From Nisaea sp. (GTDB taxonomy: Bacteria; Pseudomonadota; Alphaproteobacteria; Thalassobaculales; Thalassobaculaceae): DNA of 64,000 bases. The notes under the pieces were generated by a model. The model searched no databases. It was not told where the DNA came from and was given only the letters and a program-made list of their open reading frames with translations. How positions within the stretch are numbered: the stretch's first letter is position 1; every line of letters starts with the position of its first letter. Positions 22,296 through 57,341 of this stretch are shown here, piece by piece. The translations under genes and the position numbers were made by a program. The stretch lies in the NCBI RefSeq assembly GCF_017640745.1, contig NZ_JAEPQA010000013.1, positions 1 through 64,000 of the forward strand, in the 5' to 3' direction.

Positions 22296-22446
22296 TTGCC
22301 ACTCCTGTTCTTTGATTTTTGACGGTGAGGAACCGCCTGGGAGGAAGAGAGCGTTGAGGAGTCCGGAACCCGCAAGGAAGCGGGCCAAACCTGCGCCTGC
22401 TGCACATCTGCAAGATAGGGACCAGAATGCACCCGGCTTTTTTACT

Positions 22447-28590: not shown

Positions 28591-28648
28591 GGCGGTCCGC
28601 CCGCATCCCGCTCCACAACCGAATTCTTCTTTTCAACGGAGGGACGTC

Positions 28649-30187
28649 ATGTCCAGTTCCCTGATCCGCAGCAGCGCCATGATCACGCGCGCCATCGACC
28701 GCCACACTATCGAGGAGATCGCCGACGGCGCCGTGCTCCAGGAAGACGGTGTGATCACCAAAATCGGCACCTATGCCGACCTCTCACGCCAGCATCCGGA
28801 CGTGCCGGTGGTCGGCACCGGCCGCGAGGTCATGCTGCCCGGTTTCGTCAACGGCCATCACCATGTCGGCCTGACGCCGGTGCAGCTCGGCTCGCCGGAC
28901 ATGCCGCTTGAGCTCTGGTTCATCACGCGGATGATCTGCCGCAACGTGAACGTCTATCTCGACACGCTCTATTCGGCCTTCGAGATGATCTCTTCCGGCA
29001 TCACCACCGTGCAGCACATCCATGGCTGGATGCCGGGCAAGCTGAACCAGGTCGAAGGCTATTCCGAGCAGGTCCTCAAGGCCTATGACGATATCGGCAT
29101 GCGGGTGTCCTATTGCTTCGCCGTGCGCGACCAGAACCGGCTGGTCTATCAGGCGGACGAGGAGTTCGTCGCCTCCCTGCCGAAAGCCCTGCAGGACCCG
29201 ATGAAGCGCTGGTTCGACCGCTTCCAGATGAGCCTCGACGATTCCATGGCGATGTTCGAGAGCCTCTACGGCAAGCATCACAACAAGTCGCGCACCAAGA
29301 TCCAGCTCGCGCCGGCGAACCTGCACTGGTGCTCCGACAGGGCGCTGACCGCGCTCTCGGACACCTCGAAGAAATACGACGCTCCGCTGCACATGCATCT
29401 GGTGGAGACCGCCTACCAGAAAGAATATGCGCGGCGCCGGGGCGACTGCACGGCGCTCGAATATCTCGACCGGTTCGACCTCTTGAGCCCGCGCCTGACC
29501 CTCGGGCACGGCGTCTGGCTGAATGAGAGCGACATCGACAAGATCGCCGAGACAGGCGTCTGCGTCTGCCACAACTGCTCCTCCAACTTCCGCCTGCGCT
29601 CTGGGCTCGCCGCGCTCAACGTGTTCGAGATCAAGGGCGTGAACACCGCCATCGGCCTCGACGAGGCCGGGATCAACGACGACCGCGACATGCTGCAGGA
29701 AATGCGCATGGTGCTCCGCGCCCACCGCGTTCCCGGCATGGACGACGTGGTTCCGACCTCGCCGCAGGTGCTGCGCATGGCGACCAGCGGCGGCGCGAAG
29801 ACCACGCCCTACGGCGAGACCATCGGAACGCTGGAGGTCGGCAAGAAGGCGGACCTGTCGCTGATCGACTGGGCGCAGGTCTCCTATCCCTATCTCGACG
29901 AAGAGATGCCGCTGCTCGACGCGGTGGTACAGCGCGCCAAGACCGAGGGCGTGCGCATGGTGATGTGCGACGGCGAGATCATCTATCGCGACGGAATCTT
30001 CACCAAGGTCGACAAGGAAGGCGCCCTGAAGGCGCTGCACGACGACCTGCAATCCGCCCTCTCGAACGACGAGGTCGAGCGCCGGGAACTCTCGAAGGCG
30101 CTGCTGCCGCACGTGAAGGAGTTCTACGCGAACTATTACGACCCGGAGAAACACGAGCCGTTCTACCGGCCGAGTTCCCGGGTCTAA
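28649..30187 (+). CDS. amidohydrolase-superfamily protein, cytosine-deaminase/chlorohydrolase-like
   Basis: The 512-residue metal-dependent hydrolase shows the superfamily ligands: HxH in MLPGFVNGHHHVGLT, a His in PLHMHLVETAYQKEYA, a second His in LTLGHGVWLNESDI and the catalytic Asp in NTAIGLDEAGINDDRD. The pattern fits the ATZ/TRZ/SsnA deaminase group with one metal. It is the fourth gene of the importer operon (58 bases after the ATPase gene, GGAGGG before its ATG). It probably deaminates or dechlorinates the imported heterocycle; the substrate is not known. A ring-opening role for the neighbouring ureide genes is possible but this subgroup usually deaminates. Confidence 0.8.
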   Translation: MSSSLIRSSAMITRAIDRHTIEEIADGAVLQEDGVITKIGTYADLSRQHPDVPVVGTGREVMLPGFVNGHHHVGLTPVQLGSPDMPLELWFITRMICRNVNVYLDTLYSAFEMISSGITTVQHIHGWMPGKLNQVEGYSEQVLKAYDDIGMRVSYCFAVRDQNRLVYQADEEFVASLPKALQDPMKRWFDRFQMSLDDSMAMFESLYGKHHNKSRTKIQLAPANLHWCSDRALTALSDTSKKYDAPLHMHLVETAYQKEYARRRGDCTALEYLDRFDLLSPRLTLGHGVWLNESDIDKIAETGVCVCHNCSSNFRLRSGLAALNVFEIKGVNTAIGLDEAGINDDRDMLQEMRMVLRAHRVPGMDDVVPTSPQVLRMATSGGAKTTPYGETIGTLEVGKKADLSLIDWAQVSYPYLDEEMPLLDAVVQRAKTEGVRMVMCDGEIIYRDGIFTKVDKEGALKALHDDLQSALSNDEVERRELSKALLPHVKEFYANYYDPEKHEPFYRPSSRV

Positions 30188-31046: not shown

Positions 31047-31789
31047 CAGGCCTTTGCCTCCGGGGCCGCGAAGGCGAAGGCGCCGGTATATTTCTTCGCC
31101 CGCGGCGCCTCGTAGGCGCGCCGCTTGCAGGTCTTGATCCCGAGCCCGACCATCGCCTCGGCGAATTTCACCGCGGCCGCGACGCCGTCGATCACGGGCA
31201 CCCCGGTTTCCTTCGTCAGCGCATCGGCAAGGTCGGTCATCCCGGCGCAGCCGAGCAGCACCGCCTCGGCATGATCGTGCTCGATCGCGGCCAGTACCTC
31301 TTCGCGCACTTTCGCCGCCGCGCCGCCGCCCTCTTCCTCGAGCGCGAGCACGGGGATCTCGGCGGAACGCACCTTCCGGCACTGACGTTCGAAGCCGTAT
31401 TTGAAGGCCAGCGCCTCTATGATCGGCACCGCGCGCGGCAGAGTGGTCACGACCGAAAAGCCATGCCCCACCATGGAGGCTGCCGCCATCGCCGCCTCGC
31501 AGATACCGATCACCGGGATATCCAGAACCTCGCGGCAGGCCTCGAGGCCCGGATCGTCGAAACAGGCGATGACCAAAGCGTCGGCGCCTTCCGCCGCCCC
31601 CTTCTTCGCCTCGCAGAGCAATCCCGGCACGCAATAGGCCTCGTCGTAATGTCCCTCGATACTGACCGGCCCGTCGGCAGGATTGCGCGCGACGATTTCG
31701 GTGCCCGGCGCCGCGACGGCGATGGCCGTCTCGCGGATCTTGTCCGTCATCGAGGCGGTGGTGTTCGGATTGACGACCAGAATCTTCAT
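31046..31789 (-). CDS. hydantoin racemase-like protein (Asp/Glu racemase superfamily)
   Basis: The 247-residue protein starts MKILVVNPNTTASMTDKI, the HyuE signature. It retains both catalytic cysteine contexts, LVIACFDDPGLEACREV (about residue 75) and AVLLGCAGMTDLADAL (about 180), unlike the paralogue at 23475-24137. Hydantoin racemases interconvert D- and L-5-substituted hydantoins. It is coupled to the GNAT gene and lies 8 bases downstream of a decayed ABC permease gene on the same strand. GAGGGA precedes the ATG. Confidence 0.83.
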   Translation of the reverse strand: MKILVVNPNTTASMTDKIRETAIAVAAPGTEIVARNPADGPVSIEGHYDEAYCVPGLLCEAKKGAAEGADALVIACFDDPGLEACREVLDIPVIGICEAAMAAASMVGHGFSVVTTLPRAVPIIEALAFKYGFERQCRKVRSAEIPVLALEEEGGGAAAKVREEVLAAIEHDHAEAVLLGCAGMTDLADALTKETGVPVIDGVAAAVKFAEAMVGLGIKTCKRRAYEAPRAKKYTGAFAFAAPEAKA

Positions 31790-46554: not shown

Positions 46555-48201
46555 TCAGCCGGCCTCCTCGGCCGGTTCCGCCAAGGGAATGCTGATGAAG
46601 ATCCGCGAGCGGGAAGCGGAGAATGCGCGCTCGATGGTGCCGCCGAGTTCGAGCTTGATACTGGCGTCGATCAGCCGGGTTCCGAAGCCTTTGCGCCCAG
46701 TACTCTCGGCAACGTCCGGCTCTGCGTCCGGGGCCGCCTCGGGACGCTCCTCGATCCATTCGAGAGACAGGTGGTCACCATCGTTGATCAGTTCCCAGCT
46801 TACCTTGAGGCTGCCGCCGGGTCCCGACACGCCGCCATATTTCAGCGCATTGGTCGCCAGTTCGTGGAAGGTCAGGCCAAGCGCCTGGATCGCCGTGTCG
46901 CCAAGCTCCACCGCCGGTCCATCGACTGCACCGTCAGCAATATGATCGCCGAAGACCTGTTGCAGTTCGCCGCGCAGCAAGGTCTCGAGATCCGGGTTCC
47001 GGTGTCCCGACCGGGTCAGCAGGTCCTGGGCGTTCGCCATCGCCTGCATGCGCGCCTCGAAGGACCGGCTGAAATCCTCCAGCGTCTCTGAATTCAGCGC
47101 GGTCTGCCGCGCCATGGCGAGGATCCGGGTGATCGAGTTCTTGATCCGGTGCTTGGTCTCGTGCAGGAGAAGGTCCTTCTCCTCCACCGCCTTCTCTGTC
47201 AGGACCTGGATTTCCCTGGCCGCTTCCATCGCACGGGCCTGCAGCCGCGCAACCGCGGCAAGCGCGGCGGAGAGCAACAGGAAAATCGCTCCGAGGACAG
47301 TGGTACGCCAGTAACGCGATGCATCGAAGAAAGCCTGGGTCTCGTGCGCCGTGATGGTCCAAGAGCGCCCTGCGATGGGGATCTTGCGTTCGACGGTGAA
47401 GCTGCTCGATGCGGACATCTCGTCATATCCTTCCGAATGGAAGAGGAGCTCGGACTGCCCGTCGGTCGTGTCCCGGGTCTCGACGACAAGCGGGAGCTGG
47501 TCAGGGCGCTCCAACGCCGCCTGGTGAAAATCCCCGGCCCGGAACGCGGCATAGACGAAACCGATCGGCTCTGCCCGATAGGCGATCCCGGTTCCAGAAC
47601 GGTAGAGCGGCGTATAGACAAGGAACCCGGCCTGCTTGACCGATGTCACCTCCTGCACCAGCGAGACCGGCGCGCTCGCCGTATCTTGTCCGGTCTCGAT
47701 CGCGGTCTGCATCGCACGTCGGCGCAGCGGCTCGCTGAACATGTCGTAGCCGAGCGCGGCCTCGTTCCGGAAATTGTGCGGCTCGAGCAGCACGATGACC
47801 GCGCGCCGGTCCTGGTCCGTTTCCGGCCAGGCCTTGATCGCCCAGTCGTAGTTCCGCTCCAGCTCCGCCTCGACGTCCCGCTCCTGACCCGCCGGCAGGA
47901 AACGCGCAAAGCCGAGGCCCTGCAGGCCGTCAAACCGCTGCTCGATTTCCAGTCCGTCGACATAGGAGATGAAATCCTGCCGGGACACCGAACCGCGGCT
48001 GGTGGTGAAATAGGCGTTGGTCGCACGAAGCAATGCAAGTGAGCGCCTCAGACGCTCGCCGATCCGGTCGACCGTATCGTCGGCAAGGGCCTCGAAACGG
48101 GCTTGTTCGGCAGCTTCTTCGGCCCGGTAGACAACGATCGTTGTCGCCAGTCCGATCGATCCGACCAGGAGGAAAACCAGCAGCGGGAAATATCGGCTCA
48201 A
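46555..48201 (-). CDS. membrane sensor histidine kinase, CHASE domain plus HWE/HisKA_2 kinase
   Basis: The 548-residue kinase has a membrane helix at about 5-25, a CHASE periplasmic sensor (about 40-270, with FLVYTPLYRSGTGIAYRAEP), a second helix near 305-325 and a kinase core. The phospho-acceptor region reads LLHETKHRIKNSITRILAMA (about 345-365), the N box FHELATNALKYGGVSG and the G box KGFGTRLIDASI. Such kinases, called PhyK, phosphorylate PhyR. Its place 1.7 kb from phyR makes it a candidate. The start is a TTG at 48201 with AAGGA upstream. Confidence 0.85.
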   Translation of the reverse strand: MSRYFPLLVFLLVGSIGLATTIVVYRAEEAAEQARFEALADDTVDRIGERLRRSLALLRATNAYFTTSRGSVSRQDFISYVDGLEIEQRFDGLQGLGFARFLPAGQERDVEAELERNYDWAIKAWPETDQDRRAVIVLLEPHNFRNEAALGYDMFSEPLRRRAMQTAIETGQDTASAPVSLVQEVTSVKQAGFLVYTPLYRSGTGIAYRAEPIGFVYAAFRAGDFHQAALERPDQLPLVVETRDTTDGQSELLFHSEGYDEMSASSSFTVERKIPIAGRSWTITAHETQAFFDASRYWRTTVLGAIFLLLSAALAAVARLQARAMEAAREIQVLTEKAVEEKDLLLHETKHRIKNSITRILAMARQTALNSETLEDFSRSFEARMQAMANAQDLLTRSGHRNPDLETLLRGELQQVFGDHIADGAVDGPAVELGDTAIQALGLTFHELATNALKYGGVSGPGGSLKVSWELINDGDHLSLEWIEERPEAAPDAEPDVAESTGRKGFGTRLIDASIKLELGGTIERAFSASRSRIFISIPLAEPAEEAG

Positions 48202-48368
48202 GAATACGGTCCTTGAAAATTCGTTAACTTTTTACGGCCTCCCCCGCGCTTCCGCAATTCTTTCAATTTGAAGCAATTCCGACCCGCCTCATGAGCGGGA
48301 ACCGGGGGATATCGGCAGCCTCAGCGGACCTGAAACTGAGAGAGGAAGAAGGTCTGTAGAAGGCGGGA

Positions 48369-48393
48369 GGAACAAATTCGGGCCTTAATCGTT
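48369..48393 (+). promoter_or_regulatory. EcfG-type promoter without a gene downstream (sRNA promoter)
   Basis: GGAAC at 48369-48373 and CGTT at 48390-48393 are separated by exactly 16 bases, the consensus form of alphaproteobacterial EcfG promoters. It points into a stretch that has no open reading frame on the plus strand but ends in an intrinsic terminator at 48482-48521. Confidence 0.8.
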
Positions 48394-48399
48394 ATCACT

Positions 48400-48521
48400 A
48401 TAACTGCAGCAACGCTGAGCGTTCTTACAAAAAAGAAAGCCGCACGACTGCAGACGGAATTCCAACTCCCGAGAGGTTTAGGCCGGCGCTGTCGCTCCCC
48501 TGACGGCGCCGGCAATTTTTT
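48400..48521 (+). ncRNA. candidate general-stress small RNA, about 120 nt
   Basis: The predicted transcript starts about seven bases after an EcfG-type -10 and ends at a strong intrinsic terminator, with no coding frame between. It has a small hairpin AACGC/GCGTT (48411-48423). Two exposed C-rich segments follow: ACTCCC near 48465-48470, and the terminator loop GCTCCCCT at 48494-48501. Both could pair with Shine-Dalgarno sequences. The Caulobacter stress sRNA GsrN is likewise sigma-T dependent and uses a C-rich loop. Homology to GsrN is not claimed. Ends are inferred from promoter and terminator positions. Confidence 0.6.
48482..48521 (+). terminator. intrinsic terminator on the plus strand
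   Basis: GCCGGCGC (48482-48489) pairs with GCGCCGGC (48506-48513). The stem extends inward by GTC/GAC, leaving an 8-base loop, and is followed by AATTTTTT (T-run 48516-48521). The polarity fits only a plus-strand transcript, yet no plus-strand gene lies upstream. Its T-run overlaps the TAA stop of the convergent kinase gene. Confidence 0.85.
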
Positions 48522-49521
48522 AGTCTTCTGCGCGTTGCTGGAATTTCAGCCTGTAGCAGACCCGGTCGTCGTCATAACTGTATTCGGCCTCGCCGCCGAC
48601 CGCGTTCGGAACGACCCGCTGCAATACAATGCTGCCGAACACGCTCTGATCCGCGATCGCATCATCGCTGAGAGTCAGTCCCTTCCTGTTCTCCGACCAG
48701 GTGACGGCAACCTGCGGACACTCGTTCTTCTTGCGGACCGAGACGCAGGAAATTTCGATCGGCGCGCCGCCGGCGCGCATCGTTCCGGCACCCGCCGCGT
48801 TCACCACAAGCTCATGCAGCGCGAGCCCGACATGCAGCGCCTCGTTCGGATTGAGCCAGAGATTCTCGCCCGTGACGGAGACAGAACCCGGCACTTCCGG
48901 CAGGTATTTCTCGATCTGCTGCTCGGCAAGATCGTAGAAACGCGCGCCGCGCCAGCTTGAATCCGTGATCAGGTCCTGGGATTGGGAAAGGGAATGGAGA
49001 CGGCCGAAGAACTTGCGCTTGAAGAACTCCAGGTCCGGCGCGAAACGCGCGGTCTGGTTCGCGATGCTCTGGATGATCGCCAGCAGGTTCTTCGAGCGGT
49101 GACTCAGCTCCCGCAGCAAGGCGCGCAGAATTCTCTCCCGTCGCCGCTCTTCGGTCAGATCGATTATCGTCGTCATGACAGAGACGGATCCGTCGGCCGC
49201 GCGGATCGGCTCGACATGGATTTCGAAGAACAGCTCGTCTCCCGGGGAGATTTCGGTTCGTCGCTTTTCCCCGGCCCCCATCGCCTCGCGTTTCAGCGCG
49301 GCGATCTCGGCGCCGCTGCCGGCACCGAAAATGGTGCTGTCGTCGGGGTCGCGCTCGGCCTCCACCGACCAGCAGTCCGGGAGATTGGCGATAAATACAT
49401 AACCGAGATCGGCGCCCTGGAGCGTTACGCAGACACCGGACCGGATCAGTGCCCGAACCAGATAATCGCTGAGCTCGGACTCGTCCTGGTCTGCCTTCTT
49501 CCAGGTCAGAGACTCTTTCAC
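48520..49521 (-). CDS. soluble PAS-HWE histidine kinase, candidate PhyR kinase
   Basis: The 333-residue protein has an N-terminal PAS-like domain (about 20-125, ending EPIRAADGSVSVMTTIIDLT) and an HWE core. The acceptor box is LLRELSHRSKNLLAIIQSIA (about residues 135-155). The N box reads LHELVVNAAGAGTM, which keeps the asparagine but loses the usual KYG, and the G box is also unusual (DQSVFGSIVLQRVV). There is no membrane helix. The GTG at 49521 is chosen because GGGAGG lies upstream, but a TTG six codons earlier is possible. It lies between the sRNA and a DUF1328 gene near phyR. Confidence 0.82.
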   Translation of the reverse strand: MKESLTWKKADQDESELSDYLVRALIRSGVCVTLQGADLGYVFIANLPDCWSVEAERDPDDSTIFGAGSGAEIAALKREAMGAGEKRRTEISPGDELFFEIHVEPIRAADGSVSVMTTIIDLTEERRRERILRALLRELSHRSKNLLAIIQSIANQTARFAPDLEFFKRKFFGRLHSLSQSQDLITDSSWRGARFYDLAEQQIEKYLPEVPGSVSVTGENLWLNPNEALHVGLALHELVVNAAGAGTMRAGGAPIEISCVSVRKKNECPQVAVTWSENRKGLTLSDDAIADQSVFGSIVLQRVVPNAVGGEAEYSYDDDRVCYRLKFQQRAED

Positions 49522-49555
49522 AGCCTTCGAACCTCCCAAGATACCGGAATCGGTT

Positions 49556-49608: not shown

Positions 49609-49773
49609 CTAAACCCGCCTGAACAGCCGCGCCAGAAGCGAGACCACGAACAGAACGAGGAACAGGAAAAACAGAACTTGTGCGATACCGGCACTGGCAC
49701 CAGCCACACCTCCAAAACCAAGAACGCCTGCAACTATCGCGACAAGAAAGAAAAGAAGAGCATAGAAAAGCAT
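49609..49773 (-). CDS. DUF1328 small membrane protein
   Basis: This 54-residue gene is easily missed. The protein starts [20 protein letters not shown], continues through the glycine-rich turn [12 protein letters not shown] to a second helix, and ends LLARLFRRV, matching DUF1328/YtjA proteins. GGAGG lies five bases before the ATG. An EcfG-type promoter lies 30-54 bases upstream, so it should be strongly stress-induced, as DUF1328 genes often are. The molecular role of the family is unknown. Confidence 0.9.
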
Positions 49774-49802: not shown

Positions 49803-49827
49803 AACGCTTTTCTTGCCTTTTCGTTCC
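49803..49827 (-). promoter_or_regulatory. EcfG-type promoter of the DUF1328 gene
   Basis: On the minus strand GGAAC (49827-49823) is followed after 16 bases by CGTT (49806-49803). The expected transcription start is about 23 bases before the ATG at 49773. The HWE kinase gene may be read from the same promoter. Confidence 0.85.
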
Positions 49828-49862: not shown

Positions 49863-50666
49863 TCATTCAGCGGCCGCCGCCGGAACCTCCCGCATGAAGA
49901 ACAGGGCCTGACTGATCAGCGCCTTGACCATGTCCGGGTTGAACGGCTTGGTGACCAGGAAGGCCGGCTCCGGGCGCTCGCCCGTCAGGAACCGCTCCGG
50001 GAACGCGGTGATGAAGATCACCGGAATATTGCTGTCGGTCTTCAGGATATCGTTGACCGCGTCGATCCCCGAGCTGCCGTCGGCGAGCTGGATATCGGCC
50101 AGAACCATCTTCGGCTTCGTGCGTGCGAAAAGGTCGACGGCCTCGGAATGGGTCCGCGCGATGCCGGTGACGTTGTGACCGAGGGATTCGACCATCTGCT
50201 CGATATCCATCGCGATCAGCGGCTCGTCCTCGATGATCATGATGTCGGTCTCGACCTGGCGGGAAATCTCCTGAGACGCTTCGTTGAGCAAGGCGCCGAC
50301 GCCTTCTTCGTCCCGCCCAAGGATCTCACCGATCTCGGCATGGGAGAAACCTTCAATGACGGCCAGAAGAAACGCCTGGCGGGCCACCGGCGGCACCGCG
50401 GCGAGATTCGCCGCCGCGCGCTTTTCCCAGGCATAGGGCGAGTCCTTCGGTTCGATCTCGATCGGAACGGAACCGAACAGGCGGGCGAAGAGTTTAAACA
50501 GGGACACGCGGTCGCTGGATGTTTCCGGGAAGCAGGAAACGTCGGCGATCAACGCCTCGAGGGTTGCCGCCACGTAGGCGTCCCCGGACGTCTGCGACCC
50601 GCTGACAGCGCGCGCATGGCGGCGCAAACTCGGAAGATGCGGAGCGACGCGAGTGGATAAAGACAT
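49863..50666 (-). CDS. phyR: PhyR, anti-anti-sigma response regulator of the general stress response
   Basis: The 267-residue protein has an N-terminal sigma-like domain (about 1-125, including AFLLAVIEGFSHAEIGEILG, a decoy of sigma region 4) and a C-terminal receiver (about 140-260). The phospho-acceptor is Asp191 in MVLADIQLADGSSG, and the acidic pocket is IIEDEPLIAMD. Phosphorylated PhyR captures NepR and so frees EcfG. It is divergent from nepR-ecfG, each with its own EcfG-type promoter, giving a positive loop. Confidence 0.96.
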   Translation of the reverse strand: MSLSTRVAPHLPSLRRHARAVSGSQTSGDAYVAATLEALIADVSCFPETSSDRVSLFKLFARLFGSVPIEIEPKDSPYAWEKRAAANLAAVPPVARQAFLLAVIEGFSHAEIGEILGRDEEGVGALLNEASQEISRQVETDIMIIEDEPLIAMDIEQMVESLGHNVTGIARTHSEAVDLFARTKPKMVLADIQLADGSSGIDAVNDILKTDSNIPVIFITAFPERFLTGERPEPAFLVTKPFNPDMVKALISQALFFMREVPAAAAE

Positions 50667-50714: not shown

Positions 50715-50739
50715 AACGGGCGGGATGAAAAAAAGTTCC
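50715..50739 (-). promoter_or_regulatory. EcfG-type promoter of phyR
   Basis: On the minus strand GGAAC (50739-50735) and CGTT (50718-50715) are separated by 16 bases. The predicted start lies about 42 bases before the phyR ATG. It is back-to-back with the nepR promoter, the -35 elements only 8 bases apart. Confidence 0.88.
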
Positions 50740-50747
50740 CCGGCATC

Positions 50748-50772
50748 GGAACTTTTTTGGTTGCCGTGCGTT
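50748..50772 (+). promoter_or_regulatory. EcfG-type promoter of nepR-ecfG
   Basis: GGAAC (50748-50752) and CGTT (50769-50772) are separated by 16 bases, with the predicted start about 28 bases before the nepR ATG. EcfG would thus amplify its own operon. Confidence 0.9.
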
Positions 50773-50806: not shown

Positions 50807-51010
50807 ATGGCCGATACAAACAATACAGAGAACCGGGGACCGGCCCCCAGCGGACCGCCCCGTGACAATGACATAAACGCCCAGATTTCCGGGAAATTGC
50901 GGGAGCTTTATGATTCCGTGCGCGAGGAGGCGATCCCCGACCGTTTCCTCGACCTGCTCGAGAAACTCGACGAGGCGGAACAGAAATCCAAGCTGGCGGT
51001 GAAGAAATGA
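50807..51010 (+). CDS. nepR: anti-sigma factor NepR
   Basis: The 67-residue protein has the NepR core INAQISGKLRELYDSVREEA followed by IPDRFLDLLEKLDEAEQ, two helices that clamp sigma factor EcfG. The open frame extends 12 codons upstream, but that would place the start inside the -10 element of its own promoter. The ATG at 50807 is therefore used. Its stop overlaps the ecfG ATG (ATGA), coupling anti-sigma and sigma synthesis. Confidence 0.94.
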   Translation: MADTNNTENRGPAPSGPPRDNDINAQISGKLRELYDSVREEAIPDRFLDLLEKLDEAEQKSKLAVKK

Positions 51011-51582
51011 GTGCGGACCGATCGACGGACGGCGCCGCTGCCGCCAGTTTCAAGCGCGACATGATTGCGGCATTGCCCAATCTCCGCGCCTTCGCCGTAT
51101 CCCTGATCGGCGCCTCCGACAAGGCCGACGATCTGGTTCAGGACACGATCATGAAAGCCTGGGCAAAGCAGGACAGCTTCACCCACGGCACGAACATCAA
51201 GGCCTGGCTCTTCACCATCCTGCGCAACGAGTTCTACAGCCAGATGCGCAAGCGCGGCCGCGAGGTGCAGGACAGCGAGGGCACGTTTACCGAGCGGCTC
51301 TCCGTTCATCCGGAACAGTACGGTTCGCTCGACATGCGGGATTTCCGACGGGCGCTCGACACCCTGCCGGAAGACCAGCGCGAGGCGTTGATTCTCGTCG
51401 GGGCCTCCGGGTTCTCCTACGAGGAGGCCTCTGAAATCTGCGGCTGTGCCGTCGGAACCATCAAGAGCCGGATCAACCGGGGGCGGCAGAAACTGCAGGA
51501 AGTCCTCTATATCGAGGGTCCCGCCGACTACGGTCCGGATGCCGTTTCCGCTCCCGTCACTTCCCAGGCCTTCGTCGCCTGA
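51007..51582 (+). CDS. ecfG: ECF sigma factor EcfG, general stress response
   Basis: The 191-residue sigma factor has region 2 (DDLVQDTIMKAWAK and IKAWLFTILRNEFYSQMRKR) and region 4 (LPEDQREALILVGASGFSYE, with recognition helix GTIKSRINRGRQKLQE). The ECF15/EcfG group recognises GGAAC-N16/17-CGTT, which occurs seven times in this window. It is translationally coupled to nepR. Confidence 0.95.
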   Translation: MSADRSTDGAAAASFKRDMIAALPNLRAFAVSLIGASDKADDLVQDTIMKAWAKQDSFTHGTNIKAWLFTILRNEFYSQMRKRGREVQDSEGTFTERLSVHPEQYGSLDMRDFRRALDTLPEDQREALILVGASGFSYEEASEICGCAVGTIKSRINRGRQKLQEVLYIEGPADYGPDAVSAPVTSQAFVA

Positions 51583-54435: not shown

Positions 54436-54461
54436 AACGCCGGAAGCCCGTTTATTGTTCC
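54436..54461 (-). promoter_or_regulatory. EcfG-type promoter of the PRC-barrel gene
   Basis: On the minus strand GGAAC (54461-54457) is followed after 17 bases by CGTT (54439-54436). The predicted start is about 78 bases before the ATG at 54351. The spacer is one base longer than in the other six sites. Confidence 0.75.
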
Positions 54462-55600: not shown

Positions 55601-55625
55601 AACGTCAGACTGAATAAATTGTTCC
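55601..55625 (-). promoter_or_regulatory. EcfG-type promoter of the OmpA-family gene
   Basis: On the minus strand GGAAC (55625-55621) is followed after 16 bases by CGTT (55604-55601). The expected leader is about 110 bases, long enough for post-transcriptional control. It lies just after the terminator of the lipoprotein gene. Confidence 0.85.
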
Positions 55626-55654
55626 CGAATGATTTATTGTTTTCATAAAAATAA

Positions 55655-55683
55655 AAAACAGCCGCGATGCTTGCGGCTGTTTT
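55655..55683. terminator. intrinsic terminator after the small lipoprotein gene
   Basis: AAAACAGCCGC (55655-55665) pairs with GCGGCTGTTTT (55673-55683) around a 7-base loop, flanked by A and T runs on both sides. It ends the minus-strand lipoprotein gene and could also work on the plus strand. Confidence 0.9.
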
Positions 55684-55740
55684 ATTACTAATCTATTATT
55701 TTCCACTTCGATGTAAACAGATCGACAGACAGATTGATTT

Positions 55741-55911
55741 TTACTTGTCGGTCGCATCCTCGATCGCATCGCCGGCCTGCTCGACGGTGTCGTCAATTTT
55801 TTCGCCAAGCTGCTCGGCGGGGCCCTGGCGGTCACAAGCCATCAGGCCGAGCGATCCGGCAGCGACGAAGGCAATGACCAGAAGAGTGCGCAGCTGAAGG
55901 GGGATATTCAT
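55741..55911 (-). CDS. small lipoprotein, about 56 residues
   Basis: The 56-residue protein has a lipoprotein signal peptide with lipobox GLMAC (cysteine at 26). After it comes a short acidic helix, DRQGPAEQLGEKIDDTVEQA followed by GDAIEDATDK. Mature length is about 31 residues. The family is not identified; small lipoproteins of this kind, some entericidin-like, are common among envelope stress genes. AAGGGA precedes the ATG. It may be read from the EcfG-type promoter upstream of the PLDc_N gene through the AI-2E gene, and it ends at a strong terminator. Confidence 0.85.
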   Translation of the reverse strand: MNIPLQLRTLLVIAFVAAGSLGLMACDRQGPAEQLGEKIDDTVEQAGDAIEDATDK

Positions 55912-55972: not shown

Positions 55973-57076
55973 TCAACGCCCGGTCGGGGAATTGGTTCCG
56001 CCGGTCTTGTTTCCCGCCGCGAAATCGTAGGCCAGCTTGCCGAAGACGGCGATCGGAGCTGCCAGGAACGCCCCAGGCATGCCCCAGCACCAGGTCCAGA
56101 ACAGCATGGAGAGGAAGACCAGGATCGGATTGAGGGTCATCTTCCGCCCCATCACGACGGGGGTTACCGCATAGCATTCGACCGCATTGATCATGGCGAA
56201 GGCGGCCGGCGCCGCCGCGATCTGGAGCGGCGCCTCGAAACTCGCGATTCCGGCAAGGGTCAGCACCGCGATCATTGCGAACGGACCGACGAACGGCAGG
56301 AAATTCAAGAAGAAAGCGAGCACGCCCCAGATCGCCGGATTGGGCAGGCCGATCGCGAACATGGCGAGCCCGGTCAGCAGCCCCACGGCGAGATTGATCG
56401 CCGTCAGCGACCGGACATAGGTAGAGAATTTTTCCTGCACCGCGTTCATGAAGGCGACGAAGCGGCTCCGGTCGGAGACCCGGCGTACCAGGGCACGCAC
56501 CGTCTTCCGGCCCTGCGCCAGCAGCATGTAAAGCAGCCCGAGGGTGATCGCCATCTGCGCGAAGGTGAGCCAGGTGTAACTGGCAAGCTGCTCCAGCATG
56601 GACGGGCCGCGCACCACGACCTCGGCGTCGTTGGCGCCGCCGTTGTCGGCCATGTTCTTGATTTTCTCGGTGGCCTCGGACGCCTGCTCGATTGAGTGCC
56701 GGAGGCCCCAGAACTCGCGCTCCAACTTGCGCAGCATGGCCGGTAGTTCGTCGAGCCAGTAGCCGGCGGGTTCAGTGAGCTGGAACAGGGCGAACGCGCC
56801 GGTGCCGATGAGCCCGGCAAGCACGACCAGCGCGCCGAGCCAGTCCGGCAGGCCGACAGACTTCATGGTCCGGACGGCCGGATAGAGAATGACGCTGAGA
56901 AAAAGCGCCAGGAAGACCGGAAGGAAAAGCTCGGACGCGAGATAGAGTATCGAGCCGGCCGCGAACAGAAACAGTCCGATGACGGCGACGGACTCAGCGT
57001 CGCGCATGCACTGTCTCCACGCGGCCGGCTCGCCCCCTACTCCGTCAGGGCTGGCGGATCGGTCAAGTAACGACAT
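55973..57076 (-). CDS. AI-2E-family transporter (PF01594-type permease)
   Basis: The 367-residue membrane protein has about eight helices, with ELFLPVFLALFLSVILYPAV near the N-terminus, a soluble central segment (about 110-175) and family motifs such as LNFLPFVGPFAMIAVLTLAG, VVMGRKMTLNPILVFLSMLF and PGAFLAAPIAVFGKLAYDF. Family members export small molecules or exchange sodium and protons. It lies 10 bases after the PLDc_N gene and probably shares its EcfG-type promoter. Confidence 0.88.
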   Translation of the reverse strand: MSLLDRSASPDGVGGEPAAWRQCMRDAESVAVIGLFLFAAGSILYLASELFLPVFLALFLSVILYPAVRTMKSVGLPDWLGALVVLAGLIGTGAFALFQLTEPAGYWLDELPAMLRKLEREFWGLRHSIEQASEATEKIKNMADNGGANDAEVVVRGPSMLEQLASYTWLTFAQMAITLGLLYMLLAQGRKTVRALVRRVSDRSRFVAFMNAVQEKFSTYVRSLTAINLAVGLLTGLAMFAIGLPNPAIWGVLAFFLNFLPFVGPFAMIAVLTLAGIASFEAPLQIAAAPAAFAMINAVECYAVTPVVMGRKMTLNPILVFLSMLFWTWCWGMPGAFLAAPIAVFGKLAYDFAAGNKTGGTNSPTGR

Positions 57077-57316: not shown

Positions 57317-57341
57317 AACGCGCGGATGGGGATATGGTTCC
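57317..57341 (-). promoter_or_regulatory. EcfG-type promoter of the PLDc_N / AI-2E genes
   Basis: On the minus strand GGAAC (57341-57337) is followed after 16 bases by CGTT (57320-57317). The predicted start lies about 29 bases before the ATG at 57281. Confidence 0.85.

Follow-up and report, generated by a model that had tools for sequence, protein, structure and literature searches.

Between the two stress kinase genes of a general stress locus, the plus strand very probably carries a real gene for an EcfG-dependent small RNA of about 120 nt, as judged from the sequence of the window (the whole stretch of 64,000 nucleotides analyzed here; Table 1). An EcfG consensus promoter stands directly 5' of the predicted RNA, which forms a short, conserved, non-coding unit that ends at a terminator, with phyR ∼1.3 kb and nepR ∼2.3 kb away. 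We consider it probable that the product is an sRNA of the general stress regulon, transcribed by EcfG and acting in trans with Hfq via an exposed CUCCCC loop; this reading draws on the promoter, the terminator, the conservation, a terminator structure that survives base changes, the neighborhood and the presence of an Hfq gene. Below, G000 is the genome of the window and G001 to G004 are other genomes of the same genus.

Promoter, terminator and fold of the predicted RNA

The first-pass annotation had claimed a perfect EcfG promoter, and the plus strand indeed reads GGAAC (48369-48373), 16 bases and CGTT (48390-48393). Transcription from ECF promoters commonly starts about 7 bases past the -10 element, and the predicted RNA start at 48400 was set ∼7 bases 3' of the CGTT. 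The window holds 11 GGAAC-N15-18-CGTT sites against 1.95 expected, a number reached in 0 of 100 shuffles, so that a chance origin of this promoter is unlikely. In the whole genome the pattern (N16-17) occurs 81 times and the same pattern written backwards 46 times; isolated EcfG-type sites elsewhere must therefore often be chance matches. Eight of the 81 genomic sites fall within 9.1 kb of the contig (48.3-57.4 kb), where the control rate predicts 0.09.

Several of the other sites in the locus face genes. The site at 49803-49827 (minus strand) faces the gene of a DUF1328 protein (49609-49773), those at 50715-50739 (minus) and 50748-50772 (plus) face the divergent phyR and nepR, and those at 54436-54461, 55601-55625 and 57317-57341 (all minus) precede PRC-barrel, OmpA-family and AI-2E transporter genes; these six sites are up to ∼240 bases 5' of the gene starts. 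Together these six likely mark a stress regulon island. The nepR start was placed at ATG 50807 because the start of the listed ORF, 50771, falls inside the promoter at 50748-50772. One more site (55975-55999, minus) falls within the final part of the AI-2E transporter gene and before a 76-codon ORF (55605-55835), for which a Pfam search gave no match. Away from the stress locus, pattern matches at 22329-22355 (plus), 28635-28660 (minus) and 31364-31389 (plus) may be chance.

Table 1. Predicted RNA elements and stress-locus genes, in window coordinates.
Feature	Position	Strand	Basis
EcfG-type (general stress sigma) promoter, GGAAC-N16-CGTT	48369-48393	+	motif; kept in G004 and G003
Predicted small RNA, ∼120 nt	48400-48521	+	identity in G004, related RNA in G003, free of start codons
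5' hairpin, base stem CUGCAG/CUGCAG, A-rich loop	48404-48453	+	fold; base stem kept in G003
Linker ACUCCCGAGAGG	48465-48476	+	CCGAGAG identical in G003, CUCCC differs
Intrinsic terminator, loop CUCCCC, U-run overlapping the HK2 stop codon	48482-48521	+	hairpin; kept in G004 and G003
HK1, CHASE and HWE histidine kinase, divergent from the RNA	46555-48201	-	domain content
HK2, HWE histidine kinase, convergent with the RNA	48520-49539	-	domain content
PhyR	49863-50666	-	
NepR	50807-51010	+	ATG at 50807 taken as the presumed start
EcfG-type ECF sigma factor	51007-51582	+	

The ∼120-nt unit is flanked by HK1 and HK2, in keeping with its earlier description as lying between two stress kinases. No ATG, GTG or TTG was found on the plus strand of 48400-48521 in G000, in line with the claim that no plus-strand gene follows the promoter. 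The strong plus-strand terminator with its T-run is also present: 13 pairs enclose the loop CTCCCC and are followed by AATTTTTT. Such a hairpin taken alone is little proof, since shuffled sequences yield 1.6 terminator-like sites per 1.2 kb, against 2 found in the 1.2 kb searched. The RNA as a whole (48400-48520) folds with -45.2 kcal/mol (z -3.84, 200 shuffles). Two C-rich segments had been pointed out, and both are in place (GCTCCCCT at 48494-48501 and ACTCCC at 48465-48470). In the terminator loop, the CCCC is fully exposed (1.0 unpaired), and it is kept and wholly unpaired in G003 too; the ACTCCC segment, by contrast, is partly exposed (mean of 0.45 unpaired for its CCC) and is not kept in G003.

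Conservation in the genus and distribution beyond it

In G004, which carries the locus, the RNA is identical at 122 of 122 bases and the promoter at 24 of 25. Over the 6.5 kb of the comparison, no identical run between the two genomes is longer than the 128 bases of 48395-48522, which start two bases past the -10 element and reach to the end of the U-run. The next longest, of 106 and 91 bases, lie in phyR and across the phyR start. Around the block, identity is 57/69 in the bases 5' of the promoter and 93/98 in those adjoining HK1, and at third codon positions it is 387/549 for HK1 (0.705), 276/340 for HK2 (0.812), 225/268 for PhyR (0.84), 165/192 for EcfG (0.859) and 66/80 for NepR (0.825). 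From this single comparison we infer selection on 48395-48522, whose limits resemble those of the predicted transcript, with the caveats that the next longest runs approach it in length and that the bases adjoining HK1 are well kept too.

The third carrier, G003, is more distant (PhyR 84% and HK2 57% identical to those of the window). BLASTN with the RNA region gave no match in G003, and the counterpart was located via the neighboring genes: the same gap between the kinases contains GGAAC-N16-CGTT, an RNA of ∼128 nt and a T8 terminator. The G000/G003 alignment score was reached by none of 1000 dinucleotide shuffles for the whole RNA and for the terminator, by 7 for the body without the terminator, and by 201 for the upstream gap. 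Between the two terminators three pairs are changed on both sides, two on one side and eight not at all, and none is broken; this covariation counts as one independent comparison, because only three genomes carry the RNA and those of G000 and G004 are identical. The terminator loop is CUCCCC in G000 and UUCCCC in G003 (YUCCCC kept). The base stem of the 5' hairpin, CUGCAG/CUGCAG, is kept with one U-A pair changed to U-G, 4 of the 7 inner pairs of that hairpin are broken, and the CCGAGAG of the linker is identical. The conservation check in close relatives thus bore out the promoter, the terminator and the terminator loop, but not the second C-rich segment, ACTCCC.

Two additional C runs occur in the G003 RNA: CCCCCC, at nt 26 within the 5' hairpin, is 0.67 unpaired, and CCCCC, at nt 42, is 0.98 unpaired. 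The 5' hairpin of G003 is similar to the window RNA's terminator hairpin, with a score reached by 4 of 2000 shuffles, or by 65 of 2000 with the entire RNA, in a comparison that was picked after viewing the sequences. Tentatively, and with the odds against it, these RNAs could be a stress sRNA family with a fixed frame (EcfG promoter, CUGCAG stem, CCGAGAG linker and YUCCCC-looped terminator) whose 5' recognition hairpin has been exchanged between species of one genus, being A-rich in the species of the window and C-rich, GsrN-like, in G003. If that were true, the module swap would amount to re-targeting of a stress regulon through one RNA module.

The RNA tracks the stress locus in the five genomes of the genus, three having both and two neither. 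In the latter two, G001 and G002, we found no PhyR at E ≤ 1e-20 and no close EcfG (their ECF factors are distant, with 27 and 35% identity at best); BLASTN with the RNA region gave nothing better than E 0.38, and the covariance model gave nothing at E ≤ 1. Among 36 genomes of the family, PhyR was detected at E ≤ 1e-30 in 3, all of this genus, and HK2 at the same threshold likewise in 3 of the 36; a search of genome contigs with HK2 returned 8 relatives with 28-43% identity. The PhyR stress switch is patchy across the family, in which several genomes are incomplete.

BLASTN of the region against 61 genomes found some match at E ≤ 1 in 44, and below 0.03 matched only G000 itself and G004. The covariance model reached E ≤ 3.4e-22 in its three source sequences (G000, G004, and G003). 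Elsewhere, 16 of 29 other genomes matched at E ≤ 1, the best at 0.0022 (G087), which was also the best value among the 27 other genomes of the class with PhyR. We took the matches outside the genus as chance; an EcfG-like promoter within 80 bases upstream was present at 0 of the 7 best-scoring loci (L164-L170). The covariance search that had been suggested for relatives recovered its three source genomes and, at the seven best-scoring loci beyond the genus, nothing convincing.

We also scanned 31 stress loci for the arrangement itself. A terminator followed 50-260 nt past an EcfG site in 9 of 81 cases, against 1 of 44 for four permuted motifs; without the three sites of the genus the count was 6 of 78, so the scan does not show the arrangement to be general, and it is the literature that shows its spread. 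The part of the scan outside the genus covered 28 stress loci in 27 other genomes of the class and gave six candidates, four of which were judged by eye. Those in G171 and G193 (7195) look like the starts of small ORFs and that in G072 looks coding; the remaining two of the six are in G047 and G193 (298). In G096, an EcfG-type site from position 3831 of L154 is followed ∼100 nt on by a terminator-like stem of 14 pairs, near two ecfG-like genes, and this site is a possible analogue in another family.

Proposed action and competing readings

By the established workings of PhyR, NepR, and EcfG, stress would cause the HWE kinases to phosphorylate PhyR, which would then remove NepR from EcfG. The released EcfG would transcribe the ∼120-nt RNA from the promoter at 48369-48393 as far as the terminator at 48482-48521. 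The product is predicted to consist of the 5' hairpin, a short linker and the C-looped terminator, and most likely acts in trans with Hfq through its C-rich loop, the exposed CUCCCC presumably serving as a seed that pairs with G-rich ribosome-binding regions of mRNAs. GsrN is processed to a stable 5' half that Hfq stabilizes, and of this trait the analysis covered the Hfq gene, which is present in 5 of 5 genomes of the genus. In this way the RNA may add a post-transcriptional arm to the stress response.

The position of the RNA would also fit another mode of action. It lies opposite the 318-base gap that separates the minus-strand genes of the two kinases, and in G000 and G003 alike the HK2 stop codon is overlapped by its U-run, as might be expected of a cis-acting antisense RNA that lowers HK1 or HK2 output through antisense pairing or through transcription interference and so provides local feedback on the kinases. 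The overlap with coding sequence is confined to the end of the U-run, however, with a strong terminator before HK2, and the terminator structure is kept through two-sided changes that a purely antisense RNA would not need beyond termination. We regard antisense action as unlikely.

HK2 ends at the hairpin and HK1 starts 318 bases on, both on the minus strand, so the hairpin could be the HK2 terminator or an element of the HK1 leader, with the plus-strand promoter incidental. In both species, though, the hairpin has 13/13 pairs and a T-run on the plus strand, and on the minus strand 11/13 pairs followed by CTAAACCTCTCGGGA (G000) or AAATGACTCTCGGAT (G003), without a T-run; from the G-U pairs and the T-run the element reads as a plus-strand one. 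The consensus promoter is moreover kept in place in G003, and the identity block runs from two bases past the -10 element to the U-run, which makes a minus-strand element improbable. It is still harder to credit that promoter and terminator merely happen to frame a non-functional gap: a terminator-like hairpin is expected ∼1.6 times per 1.2 kb and a genome contains 46 matches to the backwards control, yet exactly this stretch is identical in G004 and has a counterpart in the same slot of G003. That the transcript encodes a small stress peptide is scarcely credible: a 38-codon frame in G003 does start inside the RNA and extend past its end, but the 122 nt of G000 or G004 contain no ATG, GTG or TTG and the minus-strand ORF of 64 codons (48321-48515) has no Pfam match.

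Known stress sRNAs and target searches

The EcfG-dependent sRNA that we favor belongs to a published kind. EcfG-regulated sRNAs are described as prevalent in Alphaproteobacteria and typically found near ecfG-nepR-phyR (PMC5869019). GsrN of Caulobacter crescentus works via a 5' loop with six tandem C, and shares with the window RNA an EcfG/sigma-T promoter, a length of ∼100 nt and an exposed C-rich loop; its predicted homologs, like the window RNA, typically lie near the stress genes (PMC5869019). The two differ in that the C run of GsrN, taken by its description, is in the 5' loop, whereas the 5' loop of the RNA in the window and G004 is A-rich and CCCC is exposed only in the terminator loop. 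BLASTN matches of GsrN are confined to Caulobacteraceae (PMC5869019), and sequence searches with the RNA described here fail beyond the genus in the same way. ReC64 of Rhizobium etli is an ncRNA 3' of phyR-tcrY with an EcfG1 consensus promoter and a fitting start by 5' RACE (PMC3892343). Like the window RNA it is an ncRNA of the phyR region with an EcfG-type promoter; it differs in being 88 nt long and in its expression, demonstrated by 5' RACE and reporter fusions (PMC3892343), while the window RNA is known from sequence alone. In other lineages, Brucella Bsr6 needs RpoE1 (PMC12772402) and sigma-E2 motifs lie 5' of 23 sRNAs of Sinorhizobium meliloti (PMC3616915); these RNAs, too, depend on an EcfG-type sigma factor or are preceded by its promoters.

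An earlier claim of novelty was thus overstated, given that EcfG-driven sRNAs at stress loci have already been published (PMC5869019; PMC3892343). Within a partial coverage of the literature we recognized no published EcfG-sRNA work as concerning this lineage, an absence of little weight. The window RNA is judged real from its sequence; it is ordinary in kind and, as far as Rfam shows, new in sequence. It would extend the known range of EcfG-driven stress-locus sRNAs by one more lineage, with a conservation block and two-sided pair changes that go beyond promoter and position. Two questions become testable: whether the stress-locus sRNAs of Alphaproteobacteria form a single rapidly evolving family or arose independently at the same location, and whether the C-rich loop matters rather than its place in the RNA.

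The window had no Rfam match at the gathering threshold, and no family named for GsrN was among the weak matches. CcsR1 (RF02791) was rejected, at 12 bits for the window and 16.9 bits for the G003 RNA against a gathering threshold of 65.3.

Target pairing was tried with 9 leaders from G000 and 6 from G003, and no pairing held up; it was scored on the duplexes alone, and some G003 leader positions came from tblastn borders. The EcfG start region with the RNA body scored 0.015 here and 0.585 in G003, and the terminator loop with the HK1 leader scored 0.085 here and 0.075 in G003; for the number of tests made, such single low values are not significant. Against random segments the HK1 leader gave 0.018 here and 0.39 in G003. 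The HK1 leader includes 62 consecutive bases identical between G000 and G004 (48229-48290), in which GGGGGAGG on the minus strand could pair with the terminator loop, a pairing not borne out in G003. GsrN pairs with a G-tract in the katG leader. Here all four katG leaders examined (G000, G004, G003, and G002) carry GGGAGGG ahead of the start codon; the duplex energies are no better than those of shuffled leaders, and the sequence around the ribosome site is the same in G002, a genome in which the searches detected no such RNA. As targets, katG, stress-gene leaders and the HK1 leader went unsupported. Of the suggested functional equivalence to GsrN, what stands is the EcfG-type promoter and the short, terminated, conserved unit beside phyR, nepR, and ecfG; the equivalence itself stays a conjecture, as the 5' C-rich loop is missing, the katG leader is the same around its ribosome site in G002 and no target gained support. 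The katG match holds one TGA in three of the five genomes of the genus (L158, L159, and L160).
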